From Vandammella animalimorsus (GTDB lineage Bacteria > Pseudomonadota > Gammaproteobacteria > Burkholderiales > Burkholderiaceae_C): a stretch of DNA of 64,000 nucleotides. Of the stretch, positions 9,037 to 24,426 are shown piece after piece. Positions within the stretch are counted from its first letter, which is position 1. Each line of letters starts with the position of its first letter. The stretch is from contig NZ_NSJB01000004.1 of assembly GCF_002285265.1 (NCBI RefSeq), forward strand, positions 1 to 64,000, in the 5' to 3' direction. A model generated the notes under the pieces. That model worked only from the letters and a program-made list of their open reading frames with translations. It was not told the DNA's origin and did no database searches. Made by a program: the position numbers and the translations under genes.

Positions 9037-9113
9037 CGGCGTGTAGCGCAGCCAGGTAGCGCACTTGCATGGGGTGCAAGGGGTCGCGAGTTCGAATCCC
9101 GCCACGCCGACCA
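9037..9113 (+). tRNA. tRNA-Pro (anticodon GGG)
   Basis: A 77-base cloverleaf with encoded CCA. The acceptor stem is CGGCGTG/CACGCCG, and the anticodon stem CTTGC/GCAAG encloses loop ATGGGGT with anticodon GGG. The T arm is TCGCGAGTTCGAATCCCG, which contains the TTCGAAT loop. It reads CCC/CCT proline codons. It heads a cluster of three tRNA genes. Confidence 0.96.
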
Positions 9114-9182
9114 TTCACACGCATTGCATCGTCAGCGCCTCAAGCCCTTCGGGGCGCCAGTCACTGACATGCCATGCACCAA

Positions 9183-9257
9183 GACCCTATCGTCTAGCGG
9201 TTAGGACATCGCCCTTTCACGGCGGTAACCGGGGTTCGAGTCCCCGTAGGGTCGCCA
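9183..9257 (+). tRNA. tRNA-Glu (anticodon TTC)
   Basis: A 75-base cloverleaf with encoded CCA. The acceptor stem is GACCCTA/TAGGGTC, and the anticodon stem CGCC/GGCG encloses loop CTTTCAC with anticodon TTC. The T loop GTTCGAG matches the consensus. It lies 69 bases after tRNA(Pro), probably in the same precursor transcript. Confidence 0.95.
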
Positions 9258-9318
9258 AAATTGGCTCGCTGCAGCCCAAGCCCATGGCACCAAGCTGCAG
9301 CGCCTGTTGGCACTACCA

Positions 9319-9395
9319 GGAGCGGTAGTTCAGTTGGTTAGAATACCGGCCTGTCACGCCGGGGGTCGCGGGTTCGAGCCCCGTCCGCTCCGCCA
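9319..9395 (+). tRNA. tRNA-Asp (anticodon GTC)
   Basis: A 77-base cloverleaf with encoded CCA. The acceptor stem is GGAGCGG/CCGCTCC, and the anticodon stem CCGGC/GCCGG encloses loop CTGTCAC with anticodon GTC. It is the last gene of the Pro-Glu-Asp cluster and is followed by a terminator hairpin. Confidence 0.96.
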
Positions 9396-11321: not shown

Positions 11322-11528
11322 GGGTATCACACCCCCGCATGAGTGAAATGCAGAAGCTGCCTTGCAGCTGGTAGGTTTCATATCGTAACAACGCCCTGGC
11401 CATTCACTGCGCTGGGTGGATTGGCAGTGATGTCGCCACCCGCCCGCCCCTTGGCACGCGCTCGGCCTTGGCGCTATCCTTTGCGCCGCCCCGCACAAGA
11501 GGGCGGCATATTCAAAGGAGACATTCCC

Positions 11529-13952
11529 ATGGCAAGGCATGCACCGGGCGGCCGCTGGCCGCTGTTACTGTTGACCGCCACCTGGCTGGCCGCTTGTGGC
11601 GGCTCGGACGATGGGGCCCCAGCGCCTGTGGCCCCCAGCTACCAGGCCGAGCTGCGACGCACGGCCATGGGCATCGCCCACATCAAGGCCGAGGACTGGC
11701 GCGGGCTGGGCTATGGCCTGGGCTATGCGCAGGCCCAGGACAACCTCTGCACCCTGGCCGATGCCTTTCTCACCTACCGCGGCGAGCGCTCGCGCCATCT
11801 GGGCGGCCAGGCGCTGGCGGTGAACAACAGCACCATCGGCCGGCCACGGAACATCGACTCGGACTTTTTCCATCGCCATCTGTTGCCTGACGATGCCGTG
11901 CAAACCATGGCCGCCGCGCAATCTACGGACATGCATGCGCTGGTGGACGGCTTTGCCACTGGCTACAACCGCTATGTGCGCGAAATCCAGGCCGGCGAGC
12001 ACCGCAGCGCGCACGCCGCCTGCCGCGCGCAGCCCTGGGTGCAGGCCATCACCGCCCAAGACCTCTGGCGGCGCATGATGCAGGCCGGCCTGGCTGCCGG
12101 GCACAGCAATTTCGTGGCCGCCATCGCCAATGCCCAGCCCCCGGCCGCTGGCGGCGGCAAAGCCGCACCGGCCGACTGGCCCAAGCCAGGCCAGGTGCAC
12201 ACGCCCCGGCTGGAGGTGGGCGGCAGCGCGGGCGTGGGCAGCAACATGTACGGCTTTGGCAGCGCCGTCACCGGCGGCGATGGCCCGCTGCTGTTTGGCA
12301 ACCCGCACTGGTACTGGAAGGGGGCCGACCGCTTCTACCAAACGCAGCTGACCATCCCCGGGCGCATCAACGTCAGCGGCGTGTCCTTCCTGGGCGTGCC
12401 GCTGGTGCTCATCGGCTTCAATGAGCACGTAGCCTGGAGCCACACCGTCTCCACCGCGCGGCGCTTTGGCCTGTTCCAGCTCAGCCTGGTCGAAGGCTCG
12501 CCCACCACCTACCTGGTCGATGGCCAGCCCGTGCCCATGCAGGCCACACCCATCAGCGTGCAAGTGCGCAACGACGATGGCAGCCTCAGCACCGTCACCC
12601 GCACGCTCTACAAAAGCCGCCACGGCCCGCTGGTCAACCTGGGCGCCATGCACCCCGCGCTGGGCTGGGGCAGCGCCAGCGCCTTCGCCATGCGCGACAT
12701 CAACAGCGACAACCACCGCATCTTCCGCAACTGGCTGCGCTGGGGCCAGGCCACATCGCTGCAGGCCTTCATCGCCATCCAGAAGCAAGAATCCGCCGTG
12801 CCCTGGGTGAACACCGTGGCCGTGGGCCGCGGCAGCGACCAGGCCTGGTACGCCGACATCGGCGCCGTGCCCAACGTGCCCGACGCGCTGCTGGCCCAGT
12901 GCGCCACGCCCGCCAGCCAGGCCCTGGCCGCCGCGCTGCCGGGCGTGCCGGTGCTCAACGGCGCGCGCAGCGCCTGCAACTGGCAAAGCGATGCCGACTC
13001 GGCCCAGCCCGGCGCCCTGGGCCCGGCGCGCATGCCCAGCCTGCTGCGCAGCGACTACGTGGCCAACATGAACGACAGCCACTGGCTGGCCAACCCGGCC
13101 GCGCCGCTGAGCGGCTACCCCGCCATCTTCGGCCCCGCCGGCAGCAGCGCGCAAACGCTGCGCACCCGCCTGGGGCACATCATGGCGCAAGAGCGCCTGG
13201 CCGGCGCCGATGGCTACCCCGGCCGCCAGGCCAGCTCCGCCATCGTGCGGGACATGGTGCTCAACAGTCGCGTGCTGAGCGCCGAGCTGTTCAAGGAACC
13301 GGCGCTGGCGCTGGTGTGCACCGAGGCCAGCATCGAAGGCGTGGACGTGCGCGCCGCCTGCGCCGCCCTGCAAGCCTGGGACAACCACGGCCACGCAGAC
13401 TCACGCGGCTCGCACCTGTGGGACGAATTCTGGGGCCGCGTGCAAGTGCCAGCCGCGCAGCTGTTTGCCGTGCCCTTCGATCCGCAGGACCCGCTGCACA
13501 CCCCGCGCGGCCTGCAGGCCAGCGCCGCGCCCGCGCTGCGCAAGGCTTTCGCCGCCGCCGTGCAGGCCGTGGCCGCCAGCGGCGCCGCCATGGACGCGCC
13601 GCGCGGCCAGCTGCTGTACGCCAGCCGCGATGGCCAGCGCATTGCGCTGTACGGCGGCTGCGGCGGCCTGGGCTACTTCACCATCGCCTGCTCCGAGCTG
13701 CCCCTGGGCCAAGGCGGCTACGCCATGGACGGGCAACCGCACGGCAATACCTACATGCAAGTGGTGAACTTTGCCAGCAGCGGCGTGCAGGCGCACAGCT
13801 TCCTGACCTTCTCGCAATCGGACGACCCGGCCTCGCCGCATCACGGCGACTACACCCGCGCCTATGCCGCCAAGCAGTGGCACCGCGTGCCATTCACCGA
13901 AAGCGAAATCACAGGCCACAGCAGCTACCGAACGCAAACGCTGAGCCAATAG
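11529..13952 (+). CDS. Penicillin-acylase-family lipoprotein, acyl-homoserine-lactone acylase type
   Basis: An Ntn-hydrolase precursor of 807 residues, expected to be cut into two chains. It has a lipoprotein signal (LTATWLAAC, Cys23). The autocatalytic nucleophile is Ser238 in GSNMYGFG, the alpha chain lies before it and the beta chain after it. The beta chain has LLFGNPHWYWKG, RFYQTQLTIPGRINVSGVS and IGFNEHVAWSHTVS, close to the pattern of PvdQ/AHL acylases and aculeacin acylases. The likely reaction is hydrolysis of long-chain acyl amides, such as quorum signals or lipopeptides. Substrate cannot be told from sequence. Membrane anchoring by lipid is less usual, since most relatives are soluble periplasmic enzymes. 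AAAGGAG precedes the start. Confidence 0.88.
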   Translation: MARHAPGGRWPLLLLTATWLAACGGSDDGAPAPVAPSYQAELRRTAMGIAHIKAEDWRGLGYGLGYAQAQDNLCTLADAFLTYRGERSRHLGGQALAVNNSTIGRPRNIDSDFFHRHLLPDDAVQTMAAAQSTDMHALVDGFATGYNRYVREIQAGEHRSAHAACRAQPWVQAITAQDLWRRMMQAGLAAGHSNFVAAIANAQPPAAGGGKAAPADWPKPGQVHTPRLEVGGSAGVGSNMYGFGSAVTGGDGPLLFGNPHWYWKGADRFYQTQLTIPGRINVSGVSFLGVPLVLIGFNEHVAWSHTVSTARRFGLFQLSLVEGSPTTYLVDGQPVPMQATPISVQVRNDDGSLSTVTRTLYKSRHGPLVNLGAMHPALGWGSASAFAMRDINSDNHRIFRNWLRWGQATSLQAFIAIQKQESAVPWVNTVAVGRGSDQAWYADIGAVPNVPDALLAQCATPASQALAAALPGVPVLNGARSACNWQSDADSAQPGALGPARMPSLLRSDYVANMNDSHWLANPAAPLSGYPAIFGPAGSSAQTLRTRLGHIMAQERLAGADGYPGRQASSAIVRDMVLNSRVLSAELFKEPALALVCTEASIEGVDVRAACAALQAWDNHGHADSRGSHLWDEFWGRVQVPAAQLFAVPFDPQDPLHTPRGLQASAAPALRKAFAAAVQAVAASGAAMDAPRGQLLYASRDGQRIALYGGCGGLGYFTIACSELPLGQGGYAMDGQPHGNTYMQVVNFASSGVQAHSFLTFSQSDDPASPHHGDYTRAYAAKQWHRVPFTESEITGHSSYRTQTLSQ

Positions 13953-14027: not shown

Positions 14028-14076
14028 AAAAAACGCCTTGCCATGCGCCCCAAGGAAAGGAGCATGGCAAGGCGTT
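14028..14076 (-). terminator. Strong terminator at the end of the minus-strand envelope cluster
   Basis: AACGCCTTGCCATGC (14032-14046) pairs perfectly with GCATGGCAAGGCGTT (14062-14076). Read on the minus strand the hairpin ends in a run of six T residues (AAAAAA at 14028-14033 on plus). It ends transcription coming from 14116 and can also stop the acylase transcript. Confidence 0.85.
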
Positions 14077-14115: not shown

Positions 14116-14859
14116 TCAAGGGCCTTGCGTGATCTCCAGCTGCACGCGGCGGTTTCTTTGCCGGCCCTGCGGATCGTCGCTGCCATCGGGGTGCGCATTG
14201 GGCGCAATGGGCTGGCTCTCACCGTGGGCATGCACCTGGATCGGCTGGGCCAGCACGTCCTGCAGGGCGGCGGCCACGGTGTTGGCGCGCCGTTGCGACA
14301 GGGCCATGTTGTAGTCCTCGCTGCCCTTGCTGTCCGTGTGGCCGTGCACGCTCAGGCGCACGTCCTGGTAGGCCTGCAGCAGCTCGCGCACCTTGTCCAG
14401 CACGGGCTGCGCATCGGGGCGAATGTCGGATTTGTCGAAATCGAACAGCACGTCCGAGGGCAGCTCCAGCACGATGCGTTCCTGGCCTTGCTGCACGGCC
14501 TTGAGCTCGCCCAGCAGCTCTTGCGTGCGCTGCAGGTGCGCCGCGCTGGTTTTGCTGGGGCGCAAGGCGCTGGCCGCGGCCGCCTGGGCAGGCTGCAATT
14601 GGCCAGCTTGCGCCGTGGGTTGCCACTGTGTGGCGCGCGGTGCGGCCTGCAGATTGGCCGGTTGCGCCGGCTGCGCCTGCAACTGCGTGCGCCGGGGCGC
14701 GGCCTGCAGCCCCGAGGCCGCTGGCGGCTGTTGCGGCTGCAGGCCCGTCTCGGCCCTGGGCGGCGCTGGCTGCAGGCTGGCTTGCGCCACTGCGCTGCCG
14801 GCGCTCACGGCCAGGGCCAGCGGCCAGGCGCAAGCCGCCCATGTGCGCAGCGTGCGCAT
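14116..14859 (-). CDS. OmpA/Pal-like peptidoglycan-binding outer-membrane protein
   Basis: A 247-residue exported protein. The signal peptide (ALAVSAGSAVAQA) is followed by a Gln/Pro/Ala-rich low-complexity stretch of about 80 residues. The C-terminal OmpA domain has DVLFDFDKSDIRPDAQ, HGHTDSKGSEDYNMALSQRRA and the closing NRRVQLEI, which bind diaminopimelate in peptidoglycan. It may anchor the neighbouring surface system to the wall. An alternative start at 14889 has AAGGGG six bases before it. It is the last gene before the terminator at 14028-14076. Confidence 0.85.
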   Translation of the reverse strand: MRTLRTWAACAWPLALAVSAGSAVAQASLQPAPPRAETGLQPQQPPAASGLQAAPRRTQLQAQPAQPANLQAAPRATQWQPTAQAGQLQPAQAAAASALRPSKTSAAHLQRTQELLGELKAVQQGQERIVLELPSDVLFDFDKSDIRPDAQPVLDKVRELLQAYQDVRLSVHGHTDSKGSEDYNMALSQRRANTVAAALQDVLAQPIQVHAHGESQPIAPNAHPDGSDDPQGRQRNRRVQLEITQGP

Positions 14860-14947
14860 CGCACGCCTTTCACTCTGTCGTCTCAACATGGCATGCCCCT
14901 TGTTCGTCAAAACAGTGCCTGGCGCAGATTGGCCCACAACGACTGCA

Positions 14948-15895
14948 TCAAGGCGCAGGCAACGCCATCACCAGGGCCGAGGCCCTGGTCGATGTGGCCG
15001 AGTGCCCATCGTTGATGACCAGCGTCAGCCCTTGCGCATCGGCCGGCAAAGCGCCCTGGAACACCAGCTCGCCCACCATGGCTTCGTTGTTGGCGATCAG
15101 CAGCTTGGGGTTGTCGGCCGAGCGCTGCAGCATGAGGCGGTCGCCCGCGGCGGTGCGCAGGAAGGTCTCGCCCCCGGCCAGCTCCGTGCCGCGCGGGCGG
15201 CGGCGGTTGCTGAAGGCGATGCTGACCTGCAGCCGGGTGCGGTCGGCCTCGCGCTGCACCGATTGCACCTGCACCAAGAGCCCGCCTTCGTTGCTGGCCT
15301 GCACCGGATAGCGCACATCGGCCGCCAGCTTCGCCGCATCGGCGCCCACGCTGTGCACCCGCAGCTGGGATTGGATCTCGGGCGGCACGGCGATGGGCAG
15401 CTTCAGCGCAGGCGCTCGGGTGTCCTGCTCGCCATTGCCTTCATTGACCACCAGCGTCAGCTGCTGGGTGCCCACGGGGATGGCGCCCAGAAAGGTCAGC
15501 TGCCCTTCCATGGAGGCGTTGTTGGCAATTGGCACATTGGTATCCTCGGCCGGGCGCTTGAGCAGCAGGCGAGTGCCGCCATCGGTGAGCAAGAAGGTGT
15601 CGCCACCGGCCAGCTGCGCGCCCTGCGGGCGGCGCTGGTTGGCAAAGGAGACGGCCACATCCAGCACCGTGTGGTCGGGTTGGGCGGCCATGCCCTTGAC
15701 ACGCAGATTCCAGCCGCCCTCGCTGCTGGCCTGCGCCTGCACGGCCGTCATCTGCGCCGCCGCGCTGGTCTGCGCCTGCGCTGCGGGCAGGCCCCAGGCC
15801 CACGCGCTGGCGGCCAACGCCAAACACATACAGGCCCGCGCGGCGGGCCTGGCAGTCAGCCTGAAGATGTCTGAAAACACGCGGTGGTTTTTCAT
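14948..15895 (-). CDS. Exported protein made of two copies of one domain
   Basis: A 315-residue protein of unknown family. A signal peptide (GLPAAQA) is followed by two roughly 110-residue copies of the same domain. The first copy has VSFANQRRPQGAQLAGGDTF, LLLKRPAEDTNVPIANNASM and QQLTLVVNEGN. The second copy has IAFSNRRRPRGTELAGGETF, LMLQRSADNPKLLIANNEAM and QGLTLVINDGH. The alternating hydrophobic pattern suggests beta sandwiches. GACAGGAG precedes the ATG. It lies inside the CsgG-type cluster, so a periplasmic accessory role (chaperone or subunit carrier) is possible but inferred. Confidence 0.8.
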   Translation of the reverse strand: MKNHRVFSDIFRLTARPAARACMCLALAASAWAWGLPAAQAQTSAAAQMTAVQAQASSEGGWNLRVKGMAAQPDHTVLDVAVSFANQRRPQGAQLAGGDTFLLTDGGTRLLLKRPAEDTNVPIANNASMEGQLTFLGAIPVGTQQLTLVVNEGNGEQDTRAPALKLPIAVPPEIQSQLRVHSVGADAAKLAADVRYPVQASNEGGLLVQVQSVQREADRTRLQVSIAFSNRRRPRGTELAGGETFLRTAAGDRLMLQRSADNPKLLIANNEAMVGELVFQGALPADAQGLTLVINDGHSATSTRASALVMALPAP

Positions 15896-16043
15896 GCAAG
15901 CTCCTGTCGTCATGGATCGGAATCGGCCCCTGGCCTCCAAGCCGGGCGGCCAGGCATGATGGCACATCCCCAAAATGGCGGGCAAGCCATGTGCACGCCT
16001 GCCGGGCTGGAGTGACGCGAGGGCGCATCAGCGCATGCACAGT

Positions 16044-16442
16044 TCAGCGGATGGTCACGCTGTTGATTTGCACCGGGCCAGTGCGCTGGCCTGTCGCGCC
16101 ATCTTGCGCCTCGGCGCAATCGCCGACGATGCGCACATCCTGCGTATTGCGCCCGGTCACCACAACCGTCTCGCCCCGCAGCGCACGGCCTTGAATGTTG
16201 ACGCTGTTGACGTTCACGGCAGCGTTGGCATCGCAATGCACCTGGATGCGCTCGGCCCGGTTGCCCGTGACTTCGATGCGGTTGCCGTGCTGTGGCTGGG
16301 CCTGTTGTGCCGGCATTTTCTGCTCCTGTTTCTGCGCTTGTTGCGGATGCCCAGATTGCGCCCAGCTGCCGCTGGCCATGGTCAGCATGGCCGCGGCTGC
16401 GGCGCAGGCGCCCAGGGCAATTCGGTGATGGCGGTGGTTCAT
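16044..16442 (-). CDS. Small exported protein with NSV-repeat (curlin-like candidate)
   Basis: A 132-residue protein. A signal peptide ends around GSWAQS, then a Gln-rich segment of about 30 residues. After that come roughly one and a half copies of the repeat that also builds the proteins at 22940 and 19166: IEVTGNRAERIQV ... NVNSVNIQG and VVVTGRNTQDVRIV ... QINSVTIR. Two cysteines (HCDANA and GDCAEA) could form a disulfide, which the other two repeat proteins lack. It may be a minor or nucleating subunit. A GGAGGG sequence lies nine bases before the ATG. Confidence 0.75.
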   Translation of the reverse strand: MNHRHHRIALGACAAAAAMLTMASGSWAQSGHPQQAQKQEQKMPAQQAQPQHGNRIEVTGNRAERIQVHCDANAAVNVNSVNIQGRALRGETVVVTGRNTQDVRIVGDCAEAQDGATGQRTGPVQINSVTIR

Positions 16443-16492
16443 GGCATGGCCCTCCTGAGGTGGAAGAAGTGGTGCTGCGCTCAGCGCCCGGC

Positions 16493-17368
16493 TCATGGCG
16501 CGGATGACTCTTGCCCGGGCTGCGCCGGTGTGGCCGGATCAGGCTGTGGTGGCGGTGGAGGCGCAGTGACGATCGAGCCCTGGCGCAGCCCTGGTATCGA
16601 CACTTCGGCAGGCATGGGCGCAGCGCGATCGACCGGGTGCGCCTGCATGGCCGCAGCGCCCGGCATCGGGCTGGCGTGCACCGCTGCAGCGCCTCGGCCG
16701 GGCGGCTTGCCAGATGCAATGGCCGCGCCCATTTCCTGCGCAAAGCGCTCGGACAGCGCCAGCTCCTCGGCCGCCATTTGCGAGCCCAGACTTTGGATCA
16801 GGCGCGCCACATCACGCCCACTGCGCTGGCCTTGCGCCGCAGCAAATTGCTGGGTCAGGCGTGCATAGCCCAGCGCCTTGACCGAATCCTGAGGCACGCC
16901 CTGGCCCTTGTGGTACATGCGGCTGAGGCGCTCCATGGCTGCGGGATCGCCACGCACGGCCGCCATCAAATACCAACGATAGGCCTGGCCGATGTCGGCC
17001 ATGGGCGAGCGTTCGTTGCGATAGGCATCGCCCACCAGCGCCATCAGCACCGGGTTCTGGCTTTGCAAGGCCTGGGCCTGCAGCTCGCGCAATTCGTTGT
17101 GAAACAGCGCGCCGCTGCAGCCCAGCCCGGGCTGGCCTTTGTCCAGCGCCTCCTGGCAGGCCTGCACATAGCGTGCGGCATTGCTGTGCGCGGCCGCCTG
17201 CGTCGTCGTCGGCGGCGGCGCTTCAAGCTGTGGCTGCGCCCAGCACCATGTGGCCGCCCCCATGCAGGCTGCGGCCAGTGCCAGGCCACGGCGCAGCCGT
17301 TTCGGTTGCGGCTGCGGCCTTGGCGGCGTGGGCGTTGTCTGGTGGTTGTTGATTTGCCATTGGCTCAT
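16493..17368 (-). CDS. Exported Sel1-repeat protein
   Basis: A 291-residue protein starting two bases after the stop of the CsgG-like gene, with GAGGAGGG before its ATG. Residues 1-45 are a long signal peptide (AACMGAATWCWA). The middle has two Sel1-like helical repeats (ALVGDAYRNERSPMADIGQAYRWYLMAA and RLSRMYHKGQGVPQDSVKALGYARL), which mediate protein-protein contacts. The C-terminal 80 residues are Pro/Ala-rich and disordered. Tight coupling to the secretion lipoprotein suggests a scaffold in that complex. This is inference. Confidence 0.8.
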   Translation of the reverse strand: MSQWQINNHQTTPTPPRPQPQPKRLRRGLALAAACMGAATWCWAQPQLEAPPPTTTQAAAHSNAARYVQACQEALDKGQPGLGCSGALFHNELRELQAQALQSQNPVLMALVGDAYRNERSPMADIGQAYRWYLMAAVRGDPAAMERLSRMYHKGQGVPQDSVKALGYARLTQQFAAAQGQRSGRDVARLIQSLGSQMAAEELALSERFAQEMGAAIASGKPPGRGAAAVHASPMPGAAAMQAHPVDRAAPMPAEVSIPGLRQGSIVTAPPPPPQPDPATPAQPGQESSAP

Positions 17369-17370
17369 GC

Positions 17371-18579
17371 TCAGCCCTCCTCATAACGCACCGGCTCAGC
17401 CTGCGTGCGGGCGCGCTGCGCGGCCTCCTCGGCCTGGCGCTGTGCAGCTTCCTGAGCCTGCGCAGCCTCGCGCTTGAACTCCTCATCCCATGGCATGGGC
17501 ACGTTGAAGAACAGGGGCTCGAAATGCTCCCAGCGCGTGAGGTCGATCTGCGCGCCCAACTGCGGGAAATGCGCCGCATACACCTGGGCCACGGCCTGGG
17601 CCGTGGGCGCATCGAGCTGCTGCGTCACCTGCACGGGCTGCTGGTACTTTTGCAGCATCACCTGCGCCAGGCCGATGCGCACCTGCGGGCTCAGCGCCTC
17701 GAAGGCGTTGCGCATGTTCTCCACCACCACCGGATCGGGGTGGCCATTGGGGATGGTGCGCCAGTACGGGGTGTTGGTGACCTTGCCGACGATTTCCAGC
17801 ACGCTCAAATCCACCAGGGTGCGAATGGCCGAATGCCGGCCCTGCATGTACTTGCCCTCGGTCTTGAAGCCAAAGGCGTCGCCGTAAAAGCCCAGGCTGG
17901 CATTGCGCTCGCTGGTCATGTCCAGCACCTTCACGACGTTGGAGGACTGCATGCGCGGCACCATTTGCTGCGTCTGGAAGTTGACCACGTTCAAGTCCAG
18001 CGCCAGCGCCGAATAAATCGCCACATTGGTGGCGTTGTAGCCCAGGGCCGTGCTGCCATGGCCCTTGCCGAATTCGACCGAGGCGTTGTTGGAGCGGCCC
18101 GCGCCCGACAGCGCGCGATCGAACTCGGTCAGCGCGCCGGTGATCAGGTAATCGGGCATGGTGACGCCGAACTGCCCGCCCAGCTGGGCCTGGGCCACCA
18201 GGTAATCCGGGTGGTAGGGCACGTACACCACCTTGGCGCCAATGCGGTTGAGCGCCGTGCGCACCATCTCGGTCACATCCCCGGGGATTTCGGCCCCGGC
18301 CAATGGGCTGGAGAGGTTGGTGGAATCCAGGATGGTGCGCGACTGCACATACAGCACCGGATCGCCGGACTTGTAGACATTGAGCATGTAGCCCAGGCGC
18401 TGCAGCGCCTGGGAGTACAGGTTCAGGTTGGCCTGCGGCAGCTCGCGCAGCTCCTGATAGGTGGCCAGCTGCTTTTGCGCATCGCGCATGGCGTGTTTGG
18501 GCGTCGAGCAGGCAGACAGCAGCGCCGTCGCTGCCAAAGCAGCGCACAGCCCGGCACGGCCGGGCCAATGGTTTTTCAT
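17371..18579 (-). CDS. CsgG/HfaB-like outer-membrane secretion lipoprotein
   Basis: A 402-residue lipoprotein (lipobox LLSAC, Cys24). The region from about 85 to 290 follows the CsgG plan: VTEMVRTALNRIGAKVV, then MPDYLITGALTEFDRA (near 141-156), then ALDLNVVNFQTQQMV and the closing helix IRTLVDLSVLEIVGKV. CsgG forms the nine-fold outer-membrane pore for curli. Its Caulobacter relative HfaB exports the holdfast-anchoring proteins HfaA and HfaD. After the core there is an extra helical segment and a charged Gln/Ala/Glu tail (about 365-402) not found in CsgG. A GTG at 18591, with GAAGAG six bases before it, may be the true start. Family assignment is from pattern memory, not a search. Confidence 0.72.
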   Translation of the reverse strand: MKNHWPGRAGLCAALAATALLSACSTPKHAMRDAQKQLATYQELRELPQANLNLYSQALQRLGYMLNVYKSGDPVLYVQSRTILDSTNLSSPLAGAEIPGDVTEMVRTALNRIGAKVVYVPYHPDYLVAQAQLGGQFGVTMPDYLITGALTEFDRALSGAGRSNNASVEFGKGHGSTALGYNATNVAIYSALALDLNVVNFQTQQMVPRMQSSNVVKVLDMTSERNASLGFYGDAFGFKTEGKYMQGRHSAIRTLVDLSVLEIVGKVTNTPYWRTIPNGHPDPVVVENMRNAFEALSPQVRIGLAQVMLQKYQQPVQVTQQLDAPTAQAVAQVYAAHFPQLGAQIDLTRWEHFEPLFFNVPMPWDEEFKREAAQAQEAAQRQAEEAAQRARTQAEPVRYEEG

Positions 18580-18708
18580 TGTTGTATTCACGAAATTCTC
18601 TTCAATGGACAAACCGGCAGGCACCGGCGCAAAACGCACAGTGCCTGACCTGGGGGGATCGGATGGAATGCAGGCAGCCTGCCCCCATGCGGCAGGCCGC
18701 CGCGCCAC

Positions 18709-19155
18709 TCACCGGCGGTTGTTCAGCACAGTGATGTTTTCCACGCCCTCGCCTTCTACATACAGCGTGACATTGCCCGAGACATTGCCCTGGATCACCG
18801 GGCTGGCCACGCGCACCGAGCCATCGGGGCCCTGCGTGACATCCGTGTAGTCCGTGCGGATCACGAGGTTGCTCTGGTTGGGCGGCAGTCGCAGCGTGCC
18901 GTCCTCGCCCACCATGGCCCTGGCATCGACCATGGAACGATCGGCCAGCGCCTTGGCCACGCGCGAGCGCGCCGCCACGCTGGGCGTGACGGTGTCCGTG
19001 ACCTTGATCTCCTTGTCCTGCATGTCCTTGTACATGCTCATGGCCGTGCCGTACTGCACCATCTGCGCCTGCGCCAGGCCGGCGCTGCCCAGCCAGGCCA
19101 GGGCGGCACAGCTGCTTGCCACTGCGGTGCGATGGATTGCTGTTCGTCTGCGCAT
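18709..19155 (-). CDS. Small exported protein of the CsgG-type cluster
   Basis: A 148-residue protein of unknown family. A signal peptide (LGSAGLAQAQ) is followed by a charged helical part (EIKVTDTVTPSVAARSRVAKALADRSM). The beta-rich C-terminus (VIQGNVSGNVTLYVEGEGVENITVLNNRR) resembles a single amyloid-type strand-turn-strand unit. It sits between the giant repeat protein (10 bases) and the CsgG-like gene, the place where small subunits or accessory factors such as HfaA or CsgF are found in related loci. GAGGAG lies seven bases before the ATG. Confidence 0.7.
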   Translation of the reverse strand: MRRRTAIHRTAVASSCAALAWLGSAGLAQAQMVQYGTAMSMYKDMQDKEIKVTDTVTPSVAARSRVAKALADRSMVDARAMVGEDGTLRLPPNQSNLVIRTDYTDVTQGPDGSVRVASPVIQGNVSGNVTLYVEGEGVENITVLNNRR

Positions 19156-19165
19156 TGCTTGCTCC

Positions 19166-22100
19166 TCATTGAAAGACAAAGTTGTAGGCCGGCGCGATCA
19201 GCACGCTCTGGTTGATCACCCCGGTGGAGGGCACGGTATAGGTGTAGCCCGGGTTGGCCACATGCGGCACATTGGCCGCCACGCCCGCTGCCCCCACCAG
19301 CGCGCCGGCATTGATGACGCTGCCCGTGGTCGTGCCCGGCGCCGCGGCGCCCCGGTTGGCAACGATGTTCACCGAGCCCGTCATCACGCCGTGGTTGATG
19401 AGCGAATTGACCGTACCCCCGGCCGTGCTCGACTGGTTGCCGGCAATCAGCACGCGCCCGGCCAACAGCCCGTTGTTCACCACCGAGTTGCTCACCCCGC
19501 CCATGCTGGCCGAGCCGCGATTGCCCACGATGCTGACATCGGCGGCCATCATCCCGTTGTTGACCACGCTGTTGACCGTTCCGCTCGTGGAAGCCGTGCC
19601 ATCGTTGCCGACGATGTTCACCCGGCCCGAGAGCTGCCCTTGGTTCTTCACGGCATTGGCCACGCCCGCCGAGCTGGCATTGGCCTTGTTGGCCGCCAGC
19701 ACGATGCGGCCATTCAGCGACCCGCTGTTGTGCACCGAGTTGGCCAGCGCATTGCCGCTGGCCTGCCCCTGGTTGCCCACGATGGTGACGCTGCCCGACA
19801 GACTGCCGCCGCTGTTGTCCACGCTGTTGAGCACGCCGCCAGCGGCCGCCTGACCCCGGTTGTTGAGGATGGCAATCTGCCCGCCCAGGCGCCCATGGCG
19901 ATTGCGCACCGAGTTGGCCAGTGCGGCATTGGCGCTGCCGCGGTTGCCACTGATGGTGATGGCGGCATTGCCCAGACTGCCGCTGTTGATCACCGAGGCA
20001 TTCGCCCCACCCTGGGTGGCGCTGGCCTGGTTGTTGGCGATCGTGATGCGCGACTGGGCAATGCGCCCGCCTTGCTGGTTTTTCACGCTGGCCACCGCGC
20101 CACCCGTGCCGATGGAGGCGCGATTGCCCGTGATGCCGATCGAGCTGTGCGTCACGCTGGAGCCGCCATCGGCCTGCACGCTGCTGGCCTCGGCCCCGGC
20201 CGCATCCGCATGCACCTGCTGGGCCTGATTGCCCACCACATCAAAGCGGCTATTACTGGCCGTGCCATCGATGGTCACGCTGTGGACCAAGGCCTGCTGG
20301 CCCTGGCTGGAGCGCACGCCAGTGGCCTGGTTGCCGGCCACGCGCATCTCCAGCGCGCGCAGGCCTTGGGCCCTCTGGCCCAGCGCCACGCTGTTGACCG
20401 AAGCGCCGCCCTCCTGCGCATCGACGCGCTCGATTCGGTTGTCCTCCACCAGCAAGCTGCTGGCTGTCAGCGGGGCCTGGATGTCCAGCGTATTGAGGTT
20501 CACATCGGCAAAGCTCTGCCGCTCGTTCACACCGAACAGGCCGCGCGTGGTCTGAGCAAACGCGCTCACCGATGCCGCCTGGTTGTTGCGCACCAGAGCC
20601 TGGCTTTCCAGTAACCGGCCACGTTGGCTCAGCGCCAGCGTATTGGCCTGCACCAGCGCGCCATCGGCATGCACTTCCTCGGCCCGGTTGGCCTGCACCT
20701 GCACATGGCTGTCGTTCAGGCTGGCGCCCTGCTGCCCTTCCAGATACACGCTGTTGACTGCAGCAATGCCATGGCGCGACGACCCGTAGCCCAGCGTCTG
20801 CTGATGGTCGCCACGCGCATGGATGCCCTGGGCGCGGTTGTTCTCGATCGTCACCGGCGTGCGCACCAAACTGGCGCCCCGGTAGGCGGCCAGCGACTGC
20901 ACCAGCGCCGTGCCGCCCATGCCGGAGACCAGCTCGGCGCGGTTGCCTGCAATCTGCAACTGCGAATCGGCATCGACGCTGCTGTGATCGTGCAGCAGCA
21001 CCGCATTGAGCGCCGCCCGCGCACGGGTGTGGCTGCTGCTGATGGCCGTGCTGCTGGATTCGGCCTGCGTCTGCACCTCGGTGGCCGTATTGCCCTTCAG
21101 CCAGACCGGCGCATGCAAGGCGCTGCCCGAGCCATCGCCACGCTCCAGGCTGACGGAGTTGGCCGTGATGCTGCCGCCATCGGCATGCAACTGCCCGGCC
21201 GTATTGGCCTGCAGCGCCAGCTGCGGGCTGCGCCACTGAGAGCCAACCACCGCCAGGCTGTTGGCCAGCACCACCGCATCCTGCTGGGCCTTCCACAGCA
21301 GGCCGCCGGCCAACTGCTCCTGACCGCCTTGCGTGCTCAGGCCCTGAGCCTGGTTGCGCTCGATCAGCACCTGCCCATCCTGAAGGCTGGCCTGCTGATC
21401 GGCCAGCACGCTGTTGGCCATGGCCTGGCCGCCGCGCACGTCCAGGCCCCGCGCCTGGTTGGCCTGCTGCAGCACTTGCATGTTCTTGAGCACGGCCTGA
21501 TCGGCCAGCACCACGCTGTTGGCCCCAGCGCGGCTGGAGCGCTCTGCCGCGCCCAGGACGCCGCCCAATGCAGACACACTGCCGCCATTGGTGCGCACCT
21601 GCTGCGCGCTGTTGTCCTGCTGCGTCAGGCCGCTGGCATCGAGCTGCGCCTGCAGCGCCCAGACGCTGTTGGCCAGCGCCACGCCGCCACGCGCCTGCAC
21701 ATCCTGCGCATCGTTGCCGGTCTGCGTGTGCTCGTTGCGGCCCGTCAGGCGGGAGCGATCCAGGTTAATGCTGTTGGCCAGGGCGCTGGCATGGTTGTCC
21801 ACCGAGGCCAAGGCCCCCATCAGCACGGAGCCCTCGCCACCGAATGCGCCAATGCGCTGGGCCACATTGCCTTGCTGCACGGCGTGCCAATCGCGCACCT
21901 GACCGTCCATTTGCGTCAACGCCATGGAGTTGGCCAGGGCGCCGCCGCCAGCCCCAACGATCTGGCGGACCTCATTGCCTTGCTGGTGCAGGCGGCTATT
22001 GCTCAGCTGCGTCTGTGCCAATGCGATGCTGTTGGCCAGCGCCGCACCCTCGAGCTTGGCCTGCGCCAGCGCGCCATAGCCCAGCGCGGCCGAAGCTCCC

Positions 22101-22810
22101 GAGGCCAGAACCTCGCTGGCCGTATTGCCATGCTGATGAATGCGCACCTGCTTCAAGGCCGACTGGCTGGCTGTCAGCACATTGGCCAGGGCCGAGCCCC
22201 CCACACTGCGCACGCCATGCGCACGCTGCTGGGTGTTGCTGATTTCAGAATCCTCTACATCAGTGCTTTGCAGCAACACGCTGTTGGCGCTGGCGCGCCC
22301 CGGAATCTGCAGCGAGGCGCTGCCCAGAAAGGCATACAGCTCGGCGCCCTGGGCGTGGACATCGCCCACCTCATTGCCGGCCACCGTCACCTGCGAGCCC
22401 TGCAGGCGTTTGCGCTCGCCCTGGCCGGAAATCAAAATGCTGTTGGCGCTGGCTGCGCCGCCCAGGGTCGTCATCGGCCCGCTGAGGCGGTTGCCGCTGA
22501 CCAGCAGTTGGCTTTGCCCCACGTCCATGGCCTCCAGACCAATGGTGTTGACCTGTGCCGTGGCGATCAGACGCAACACACCTGCCAAGCCAAACCCCAG
22601 GCTGCCGCCCAGGCCCACGGCCTCGACCTTGGCCGCGCTGCGGTTGCCCGATACCGTGATGGCGCTGGAGCGGATGCTGCTGCCAGGGTTGCCCTCCATG
22701 ACCCAACCCAGGCCATGCAGCATGTTTTCCTGCGCCTGCACCGGCCATGCCGCCAGCGCACAGGCTGCAGCGCAGGCCGCGGCCACCACGGTCTTGTCCA
22801 TTCGCACCAT
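19166..22810 (-). CDS. Giant exported repeat protein (HfaD/curlin-like adhesin candidate)
   Basis: A 1214-residue protein. A signal peptide (ALAAWPVQAQ) is followed almost entirely by repeats. Residues of roughly 30-850 hold about 18-20 units of 40-45 residues with the pattern ANSVxL ... xSxVxxxGNxAxxVxAxGGxA, rich in Gln and Asn. From about 860 to 1150 shorter units of about 28 residues follow (GSLSGSVTIVGNQGQASGNALANSV type). The end (STGVINQSVLIAPAYNFVFQ) is unrelated. There are no cysteines beyond the signal peptide and few aromatics. Such spacing predicts a beta-solenoid or cross-beta fibre. Gln/Asn ladders are typical of CsgA and HfaD. GGAG five bases before the ATG supports 22810, and an ATG three codons later is possible. 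Confidence 0.8.
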   Translation of the reverse strand: MVRMDKTVVAAACAAACALAAWPVQAQENMLHGLGWVMEGNPGSSIRSSAITVSGNRSAAKVEAVGLGGSLGFGLAGVLRLIATAQVNTIGLEAMDVGQSQLLVSGNRLSGPMTTLGGAASANSILISGQGERKRLQGSQVTVAGNEVGDVHAQGAELYAFLGSASLQIPGRASANSVLLQSTDVEDSEISNTQQRAHGVRSVGGSALANVLTASQSALKQVRIHQHGNTASEVLASGASAALGYGALAQAKLEGAALANSIALAQTQLSNSRLHQQGNEVRQIVGAGGGALANSMALTQMDGQVRDWHAVQQGNVAQRIGAFGGEGSVLMGALASVDNHASALANSINLDRSRLTGRNEHTQTGNDAQDVQARGGVALANSVWALQAQLDASGLTQQDNSAQQVRTNGGSVSALGGVLGAAERSSRAGANSVVLADQAVLKNMQVLQQANQARGLDVRGGQAMANSVLADQQASLQDGQVLIERNQAQGLSTQGGQEQLAGGLLWKAQQDAVVLANSLAVVGSQWRSPQLALQANTAGQLHADGGSITANSVSLERGDGSGSALHAPVWLKGNTATEVQTQAESSSTAISSSHTRARAALNAVLLHDHSSVDADSQLQIAGNRAELVSGMGGTALVQSLAAYRGASLVRTPVTIENNRAQGIHARGDHQQTLGYGSSRHGIAAVNSVYLEGQQGASLNDSHVQVQANRAEEVHADGALVQANTLALSQRGRLLESQALVRNNQAASVSAFAQTTRGLFGVNERQSFADVNLNTLDIQAPLTASSLLVEDNRIERVDAQEGGASVNSVALGQRAQGLRALEMRVAGNQATGVRSSQGQQALVHSVTIDGTASNSRFDVVGNQAQQVHADAAGAEASSVQADGGSSVTHSSIGITGNRASIGTGGAVASVKNQQGGRIAQSRITIANNQASATQGGANASVINSGSLGNAAITISGNRGSANAALANSVRNRHGRLGGQIAILNNRGQAAAGGVLNSVDNSGGSLSGSVTIVGNQGQASGNALANSVHNSGSLNGRIVLAANKANASSAGVANAVKNQGQLSGRVNIVGNDGTASTSGTVNSVVNNGMMAADVSIVGNRGSASMGGVSNSVVNNGLLAGRVLIAGNQSSTAGGTVNSLINHGVMTGSVNIVANRGAAAPGTTTGSVINAGALVGAAGVAANVPHVANPGYTYTVPSTGVINQSVLIAPAYNFVFQ

Positions 22811-22876
22811 AAAAACTCCAGCGCCCAAAAAAACTCCGGGAACCTCTGGCGACAGACTGGCCCGGAACACGAGAAC

Positions 22877-22926
22877 CAATCCGCGCCTGCGCCACCCTCA
22901 CAAGCCGGAGGCGCAGGCGCGGATTG
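22877..22926 (-). promoter_or_regulatory. 17-bp perfect hairpin between first subunit gene and giant gene
   Basis: CAATCCGCGCCTGCGCC (22877-22893) pairs perfectly with GGCGCAGGCGCGGATTG (22910-22926), with a 16-base loop. No T-run follows on either strand, so it is not a classic terminator. It lies just downstream of the 120-residue subunit gene. It may protect that short message from 3' decay or partly stop transcription, giving more small subunit than giant protein. Confidence 0.6.
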
Positions 22927-22939
22927 CATTCATGCCGTA

Positions 22940-23302
22940 TCAGTTGATGTTGACGCTGTTGACGTTGGCCGTGCCGCCAATGGCGTAGATGTCCTCGGCG
23001 GTGTTGCCCGTCACGTTGATGACGGAGTCACTGACCTCGGAGCCGGTGATGTTGACGCTGTTGACGTTGGCAACGCCTTCCATTTCCAGCTCGAACACCT
23101 TGATGCCTGCGCTGCCGCCGCCAGCGATCACGTTCTTGGCCGAGTTGCCCGAGACGTTGATGGTGCTGTTCTTGATCGTCGAGCCGCTCGAGCCTGACGC
23201 GGAAAACAAGCCAGGAATACTGGCATTGCCAGACTGGGCCATGGCGCTGGACGCCAGTACCGAAGCGAGCAATGCACCCACACAAACCAGTTTGCGAGAC
23301 AT
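22940..23302 (-). CDS. Small exported NSV-repeat protein (major fibre subunit candidate)
   Basis: A 120-residue protein, first gene of the cluster. The signal peptide ends at SSAMAQ. The mature part has two clear repeats: STINVSGNSAKNVIAGGGSA ... VANVNSVNITG and SVINVTGNTAEDIYAIGGTA-NVNSVNIN. The same strand-turn-strand unit builds the protein at 19166 and part of the one at 16044. Size, repeat number, lack of cysteine in the mature part, and leading position suggest a curlin/HfaA-like major subunit. AGGAGAACCCCT precedes the ATG, a strong ribosome binding site. Confidence 0.78.
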   Translation of the reverse strand: MSRKLVCVGALLASVLASSAMAQSGNASIPGLFSASGSSGSTIKNSTINVSGNSAKNVIAGGGSAGIKVFELEMEGVANVNSVNITGSEVSDSVINVTGNTAEDIYAIGGTANVNSVNIN

Positions 23303-23715
23303 AGGGGTTCTCCTAAAAAGTTCAGAGCATTCGCCAAGACATGACCGACCATGTGGGCCCCATGGCCCTGACGCGACCGGCACAAGGCCTGACGGACAAC
23401 TGAGTCGGGCAGTCTCACTGCCTGACCAGCGCTGCGAAATTTAAGAAAAACCCGCACGCCGCCGATGCGCAAAATGTTCGCGACTGTATGGAGTTGCAAG
23501 CGCCGCCACCGTGCCCCGCCCCAAGTGATCGGCACCTGCACTGCCCGCTTTCAATGGGGTTGCTGTTGGTTGCAATCCTTGATGGGCGCTTACCAAAAGC
23601 ACATTTTTGCGACGCAGGCGGCGCAACAGTCTCACTATCATCGCCGCGCCCTTCACTGCGGCCCCCGCTGCGCCATGGCCTGCCTGGCGCCCTTGCCACA
23701 GGACTTCTCTCGCCC
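23303..23715. promoter_or_regulatory. Divergent promoter region of the repeat-protein cluster
   Basis: These 413 bases between two divergent genes contain no gene. Visible elements are an inverted repeat GGCAGT-CTC-ACTGCC (23408-23422), an A/T-rich patch (AAATTTAAGAAAAA, about 23437-23451) that could hold a minus-strand -10, and the string CAGTCTCACT occurring twice in the same direction (23410-23419 and 23627-23636), once near each end. The doubled string may be an operator shared by both promoters. No sigma-54 site was found. Confidence 0.4.
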
Positions 23716-24426
23716 ATGAATGCCCCGTATTCGCCAGCCCTCAGCGCACAGCGCTCTCCCAGCCCGCGCCACCTTGCCGCGGCCGGCGCGGCCTTGCTCG
23801 CCCTGGCGTTGAGCGCCTGCGATCTGCGCGGTGCGACGTCTGGCGCCATCGCCTACCCCGATGACACAGCCATTACCAAGGCCTTGCGCATCGACTGGGA
23901 CAGCGACCCGGCAGGGCAGCAGGCCCAGGCCTTGCTGCACACCCTGGGCGGCCCCGGGGCCAGCGTGCGCTACCGCATCCACCGGGTGATTGCGCAGCCT
24001 GTGGGCTTTCTTGTGCAATACGATGCCGTTGTGCAGCTGCAGCAGGACGGGGCCCAGAGCCTGCAGCAGTTCCAGCGACAACTGGCCGCGCAATTGGCTC
24101 AGCAGGCTCAGCAAAGCGCAGCGAAGGGCAAGGGAGACAACGCCCCAGCCGCTCCAGGCCAACAAGCGCCGCAACCATCGGGCGATCCGGGCAAGGCCGA
24201 GCTGCAAAAAGCCATCGAGCAGCTGCGCATCACCCAGGCAGAGCAAGCCCAGGCTTTAGACAACATGCTGCAGAACATGCAACAGTGCTACCAAGAACGC
24301 CACAAGGGCGATGAGGTGGTGCTGATGGCGCGGCTGCGGGCCCACCTCTGGCCCGAGCGCAATCAGGGCTGGTATGCAGAAAAAATCGCCGCGCCGGACA
24401 TGCAGATCGCCTGCCTGCCGCTTTAA
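23716..24426 (+). CDS. Predicted lipoprotein divergent from the repeat-protein cluster
   Basis: A 236-residue protein of unknown family. A lipobox (LALALSAC) lies near residue 35, after a long basic N-terminus. The mature part has a small alpha/beta domain (ALRIDWDSDPAGQQAQALL, RYRIHRVIAQPVGFLVQYDAVVQL). It continues into Gln-rich coiled coils (RQLAAQLAQQAQQSA, EQLRITQAEQAQALDNMLQNMQQCYQ) and ends with a second short domain. The shared promoter region suggests coregulation with the CsgG-type cluster. A role in fibre assembly is inferred only from position. Confidence 0.65.
   Translation: MNAPYSPALSAQRSPSPRHLAAAGAALLALALSACDLRGATSGAIAYPDDTAITKALRIDWDSDPAGQQAQALLHTLGGPGASVRYRIHRVIAQPVGFLVQYDAVVQLQQDGAQSLQQFQRQLAAQLAQQAQQSAAKGKGDNAPAAPGQQAPQPSGDPGKAELQKAIEQLRITQAEQAQALDNMLQNMQQCYQERHKGDEVVLMARLRAHLWPERNQGWYAEKIAAPDMQIACLPL

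Follow-up and report, generated by a model that had tools for sequence, protein, structure and literature searches.

What does a block of nine genes for exported proteins build in Vandammella animalimorsus, when one of the products recalls the outer-membrane pores of fibre systems and another is a repeat protein of 1214 residues? Pores of the CsgG type are known from curli and from the Caulobacter holdfast anchor, and parallel beta-helices on bacterial surfaces are so far known mainly as the cargo of type V secretion. In this work we have followed up an earlier note on the locus, which proposed a fibre or adhesin system dependent on a CsgG/HfaB-like pore. The block lies within the stretch of 64,000 nucleotides that was analysed, referred to here as the window. 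What it makes appears to be a fibre or an adhesin on the cell surface, based on an unusually long beta-helix protein which is probably exported through an outer-membrane pore of the HfaB type.

Organization of the locus

The features, in window coordinates, are as follows.

23716..24426, plus strand: P0009, divergent exported lipoprotein of 236 aa, of no known family (lipoprotein call by eye)
23303..23715: divergent intergenic region of 413 bp between P0002 and P0009
22940..23302, minus strand: P0002, small exported repeat protein of 120 aa
19166..22810, minus strand: P0003, exported protein of 1214 aa, a predicted long parallel beta-helix, with repeats of ~86 and then ~28 residues
18709..19155, minus strand: P0004, exported protein of 148 aa, of no known family, its gene lying immediately before the HfaB-like one
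17371..18579, minus strand: P0001, HfaB-family lipoprotein of 402 aa with a C-terminal helical domain
16493..17368, minus strand: P0005, exported Sel1-repeat protein of 291 aa
16044..16442, minus strand: P0006, small exported repeat protein of 132 aa, related to P0002
14948..15895, minus strand: P0007, exported protein of 315 aa with an internally duplicated domain
14116..14889, minus strand: P0008, exported protein of 257 aa with an OmpA-like peptidoglycan-binding domain at its C-terminus
14032..14076, minus strand: intrinsic terminator at the operon end, an inverted repeat with arms of 18 nt and a T run behind it

The earlier note had described eight minus-strand genes running from 23302 to 14116 and one gene diverging from them, and all nine open reading frames are found at or near these positions. 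Signal peptides and lipoboxes were judged by eye, and on this basis all nine products read as exported. The strong terminator claimed for the end of the operon is also present, with arms at 14032-14049 and 14059-14076 which are 94% complementary and with the T run 3' of the stem on the minus strand; it was not listed by a consensus terminator scan, probably because its loop of 9 nt exceeds the 8-nt limit of that scan. A consensus scan found no sigma-70 consensus promoter. Judging from the layout, P0002 and P0009 should each be transcribed from a promoter in the region which separates them.

When the nine proteins were scanned with Pfam, only two exceeded the family cut-offs, P0005 with PF08238 (E 2.2e-8) and P0008 with PF00691 (E 8.8e-18), which bears out their description as a Sel1-repeat protein and an OmpA-like protein. 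P0003, P0004 and P0009 matched no Pfam family above cut-off. The duplication in P0007 was confirmed by its relatives in L033-L044, in which both halves of the protein match the same single domain at one place.

Conservation of the gene block

Is this set of genes more than a chance neighbourhood? We searched 299 genomes of the family, evenly drawn from a larger group, with P0001 at E <=1e-3. Matches were found in 58 genomes; 14 of these hold orthologues (63-100% identity, the source genome included) and 44 hold distant relatives only. All eight operon genes were present in each of the 13 orthologous regions that were fetched, and P0009 in 12 of them. A contig collection of 84,980 species, filtered by two peptide patterns and then searched with the P0001 profile, yielded 36 loci, several of which come from the same genomes as the 13 regions. 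They are titled Vandammella, Xylophilus, Xenophilus, Variovorax, Pseudacidovorax, Acidovorax, Brachymonas, Ottowia and Diaphorobacter, the remainder being unplaced Comamonadaceae, Burkholderiales, Proteobacteria or Pseudomonadota; L084 is the locus of Acidovorax radicis N35. The full eight-gene set, in the same order and on the same strand, occurs in 31 of the 36, and the five incomplete loci (L057, L058, L063, L071 and L086) run into the end of their contig. P0009 is present in 32, being absent from three Brachymonas loci and one contig of 3.4 kb. In L057 and L083 some genes match in two or three open frames and may be broken or misassembled there. The gene set is thus co-conserved in other Comamonadaceae, as the earlier proposal had demanded.

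The surroundings behave differently. Within the fetched stretches, the two genes which flank the block in the window both recur only in L052 and L053, two Vandammella-like loci, and a weak aldehyde dehydrogenase relative (32%) was seen in L070. That the nine genes keep together while their surroundings change speaks for a functional unit. Its distribution within the genus is patchy: P0001 of G188, a genome of the same genus, is 99% identical, whereas G086 and G263, also listed under this genus, have no P0001 match. A class-wide search of 369 genomes, few of them from the same family, with the P0002 profile returned the source genome and one marginal match (G605, E 9e-4), and none of the other genes was seen by eye in the minus-strand frames around the latter.

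The HfaB-family lipoprotein

The earlier note had called P0001 a CsgG/HfaB-like pore candidate, and it is the HfaB part of this name that stands. In a profile-profile comparison P0001 was aligned to HfaB with a probability of 98.1% (E=1.1e-13, 279 columns), the alignments being shallow (Neff 1.6-2.8) and including the lipoprotein signal. The HfaB equivalog model NF037935 weakly matches all 14 members of the P0001 family (best E 1.5e-5), and P0001 itself scores 23.8 bits, below the curated cut-off of 300 bits; the source genome was not among the hits when HfaB was searched in six frames at E <=1e-4. CsgG itself is barely detectable. With PF03783 the source genome reached 12.5 bits, under the curated cut-off of 20.8, and 6 of the 14 members matched at E <=1 (best 0.0012), while the direct profile-profile comparison gave 12%, and 2% after the sister family had been added. 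HfaB and CsgG are linked to each other at 99.6%, against 0.6% for a control comparison. By its sequence, P0001 is a remote member of the HfaB family, nearer to HfaB than to CsgG. The other CsgG protein of the source genome did not match P0001 (profile-profile 9%).

Cys24 of P0001, which lies in a lipobox recognized by eye, is invariant in 14 of 14 sequences. The AlphaFold model of the monomer has a pLDDT of 43.9 and a pTM of 0.35, and the pLDDT of the presumed pore domain (residues 40-270) is below 50; the structure comparison covered residues 280-399. Of these, residues ~280-362 are helical and resemble a peptidoglycan-binding domain, and the C-terminal domain is likely to be of this kind.

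The repeat proteins

The structure model of P0003 is a very long, all-beta parallel beta-helix (pLDDT 81), with three strands and ~28 residues per rung, roughly 40 rungs and a length of ~20 nm. The motif N[SA][VIL] occurs 20 times in this protein, compared with 5.4 times on average, and never more than 15, in 2000 shuffled sequences. The large repeat subunit of the earlier note is thus borne out as regards its repeats, but it models as a parallel beta-helix and not as a curlin-like solenoid. In P0002 and P0006 the motif occurs twice each, and its count alone is uninformative, because shuffled sequences reach the same number (maxima of 5 and 3). That the three proteins of 120, 1214 and 132 residues have the N-S-V repeat in common is nevertheless supported by profile-profile comparison, in which P0002 is related to P0006 at 98.1% and to P0003 at 97.6%, corresponding to one super-repeat of P0003 of ~85 residues. 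Cys70 and Cys109 of P0006 are invariant among its relatives.

Foldseek matched the P0003 model to solved parallel beta-helices of the adhesin, lyase and tailspike type, with low probabilities (0.57 at most and nearly all <0.3) and with only one match at E <1e-3. The predicted fold also fits enzymes. Could P0003 be a carbohydrate-active beta-helix enzyme or a polysaccharide binder, such as a lyase, an epimerase or a tailspike-like protein, in a locus which serves a surface polysaccharide? We regard such a role as improbable.

The same matches include passengers of type V secretion (antigen 43 ranks first, EtpA eighth and pertactin 36th), and a parallel beta-helix shaft, predicted for P0003, is what these adhesins would share with it. 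It might be supposed that P0003 leaves the cell by a type V (two-partner) route and that its HfaB-like neighbour is incidental. However, the translocator domain or partner of such adhesins was not found here: P0003 lacks any Pfam domain, none of the nine genes encodes a translocator and no ShlB-type partner was found in the source genome at E <=0.01, in a search without a strong positive control (of 14 control genomes 2 gave matches, none of them above cut-off). We consider this route very unlikely.

Comparison with curli and the holdfast anchor

As in curli, a lipoprotein of the CsgG superfamily (by way of HfaB) adjoins small and larger repeat proteins. The likeness does not extend to the other curli components; the earlier note had already remarked on the absence of CsgE and CsgF. 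In the source genome, which at 3.1 Mb in 22 contigs is 99.7% complete, neither CsgE (best E 0.55, 11.9 bits; cut-off 25) nor CsgF (no match at E <=1) was found above cut-off, and the curlin repeat PF07012 had no match at E <=1. The pattern QX10Q occurs in none of 14 P0002 sequences and a looser curlin pattern once in 3 of the 14; in P0003 sequences QX10Q is found 0-7 times, a raw count made without a chance comparison. The rungs of the P0003 model, moreover, differ in length from the curlin repeat, which is given as ~23 residues in an excerpt of PMC10192328.

Is the locus then a holdfast anchor? With HfaA-HfaB-HfaD of Caulobacter it shares an outer-membrane lipoprotein of the HfaB family beside exported repeat proteins, and in L119 and L120 the HfaB gene is immediately preceded by one for a short exported protein, as the P0001 gene is by that for P0004 here. 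This position suggested that P0004 might be an HfaA homologue, for which profile comparison gave no support (1.8%); nor did it support a relation of P0003 to HfaD (0.2%). P0002 likewise had no detectable relation to HfaA (19%) or HfaD (0.3%). These negatives hold at the sensitivity of alignments of 4 HfaA and 3 HfaD sequences. The locus further differs from the holdfast anchor in its added Sel1, OmpA and further conserved genes, and P0001 differs from HfaB in its extra C-terminal domain and in falling short of the NF037935 cut-off. The architecture is therefore distinct from both known systems, as had been proposed.

Related HfaB-like loci

Seven loci with distant P0001 relatives from the same bacterial family, L045-L051, were also fetched. 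In each of them an open frame of ~560-710 residues encodes an HfaB-like protein. This related family of ~600 aa is tied to P0001 at 99.2% and to HfaB at 96.8% by profile-profile comparison, and the NCBIfam HfaB model matches the two proteins that were scanned at E 7e-7 and 0.03. The gene order resembles that of our locus: a repeat subunit (7/7; six by the count of QN[LVI][AS]SN motifs and L051 by eye), an exported protein of ~140 residues, whose gene precedes the HfaB-like one (4/7), the HfaB-like protein and a Sel1-like protein. A homologue of the downstream protein of L046 is present in 7/7 loci, its Sel1 label resting on a Pfam score of 21.3 bits, below the cut-off of 30.7 (E 4e-4). The differences are an extra DUF4384 in the HfaB-like protein (both of those scanned) and subunits with the repeat QN[LI]ASN, which profile comparison did not link to P0002 or to HfaD. 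The ~140-residue proteins also have no profile relation to P0004, and the Sel1-type proteins of the two locus types align over 40 columns only, with a low probability of 21%. The same type of exporter thus appears with unrelated repeat clients.

These loci bear on a further reading, in which P0001 has the HfaB fold but translocates nothing. The beta-helix proteins would then be held inside the envelope, as a scaffold which is periplasmic or associated with the outer membrane and is tied to the wall by P0008. Two observations argue against it. The most conserved block of P0001 aligns to a stretch of HfaB which we take to be its second hairpin region, and the related loci keep the HfaB-like protein while their repeat proteins differ, which suits an exporter. 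We think a scaffold of this kind unlikely.

Proposed mechanism and significance

On balance we lean towards a secretion and surface-assembly system of the HfaB type with a wall anchor and beta-helix clients, its export and fibre formation being inferred. In such a system an oligomer of the lipoprotein P0001 in the outer membrane would export the repeat proteins P0002, P0003 and P0006, as its homology to HfaB suggests. P0003 would fold outside the cell as a rigid beta-helix and serve as an adhesin or as the shaft of a fibre. P0002 and P0006, each a module of one super-repeat with about three rungs, may stack on the helix end to end, extend it or cap it. From their positions, P0004 and the Sel1 protein P0005 could be periplasmic accessory factors, while P0008, by its OmpA domain, and P0001, by its C-terminal domain, would anchor the assembly to the cell wall; P0007 and P0009 are perhaps accessory exported proteins. 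Do we then have a new class of surface-fibre pathway, in which an HfaB-type pore exports giant parallel beta-helix adhesins and P0002 and P0006 are added end to end to lengthen the shaft? This we put forward tentatively, as a possibility somewhat short of even.

In open-licence PubMed Central text we found no description of the locus and no report of an HfaB-type pore exporting a protein as large as P0003, and the terms curli, CsgG, HfaB and OmpA do not occur in the excerpt of a Vandammella vaccine paper. We conclude that the system is real and that it is without a description in that literature. An HfaB-family lipoprotein together with a beta-helix of ~20 nm and one-module proteins would widen the known cargo of CsgG-type pores, and the locus would offer a modular adhesin for studying how beta-helices stack end to end. 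It would also point to a family of assembly systems built on HfaB in Comamonadaceae, which the Pfam and NCBIfam models used do not name. If the proposed pathway exists, HfaB-like exporters may be a general, exchangeable platform for repeat-protein fibres, given the related loci with unrelated subunits. Among the carriers, Acidovorax, Variovorax and Xenophilus are bacteria of soil, water or plants. For Vandammella animalimorsus, the route to people is by the bites and saliva of animals, according to an excerpt of PMC11278545.

Related exporters and distribution

All seven fetched loci that hold distant relatives of P0001 (the HfaB-family lipoprotein and putative exporter of the operon) share one arrangement, in which an HfaB-like lipoprotein of about 560–710 aa has a protein with QN[LI]ASN-type repeats encoded upstream and a Sel1-like protein downstream. 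Both of the two lipoproteins of this group that were scanned contain DUF4384. These loci represent a fibre-like system distinct from that of the window, with a putative exporter akin to P0001. One example is:

L046:6924-11409, minus strand, related HfaB-like locus

The window's own genome encodes an additional CsgG protein, which scores above the Pfam cut-off and carries a C-terminal PG_binding_1 domain as a fusion; no repeat proteins were recognised by eye among the neighbours of its gene:

L097:8258-9427, contig C1, additional CsgG protein

Two further genomes of the same genus (G086 and G263) gave no P0001 match, and the locus is therefore patchy even inside the genus.

Surroundings and variation of the block

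9037-9395, tRNA cluster Pro-Glu-Asp, about 2 kb upstream of the penicillin-acylase-like gene
11343-13952, penicillin-acylase-like gene adjoining the block, function assigned by eye

The internal duplication of the exported protein P0007 (14948-15895) was found in the window and in the orthologous locus L032 (315 aa). In the other twelve orthologous loci (L033-L044) both halves match a single place, and the called counterparts measure 160–207 aa in 11 of the 12, the L033 protein being 369 aa with an uncertain start; several of these counterparts show a lipobox by eye. The small repeat protein P0006 (16044-16442) has two cysteines, one in each repeat, which are invariant in 14 of 14 relatives, and the pair may form a disulfide, which would lock the module. 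The predicted beta-helix protein P0003 (19166-22810) differs in length across 14 relatives, the shortest version having 986 aa and the longest 1216 aa, and the gaps are about as long as its repeats.
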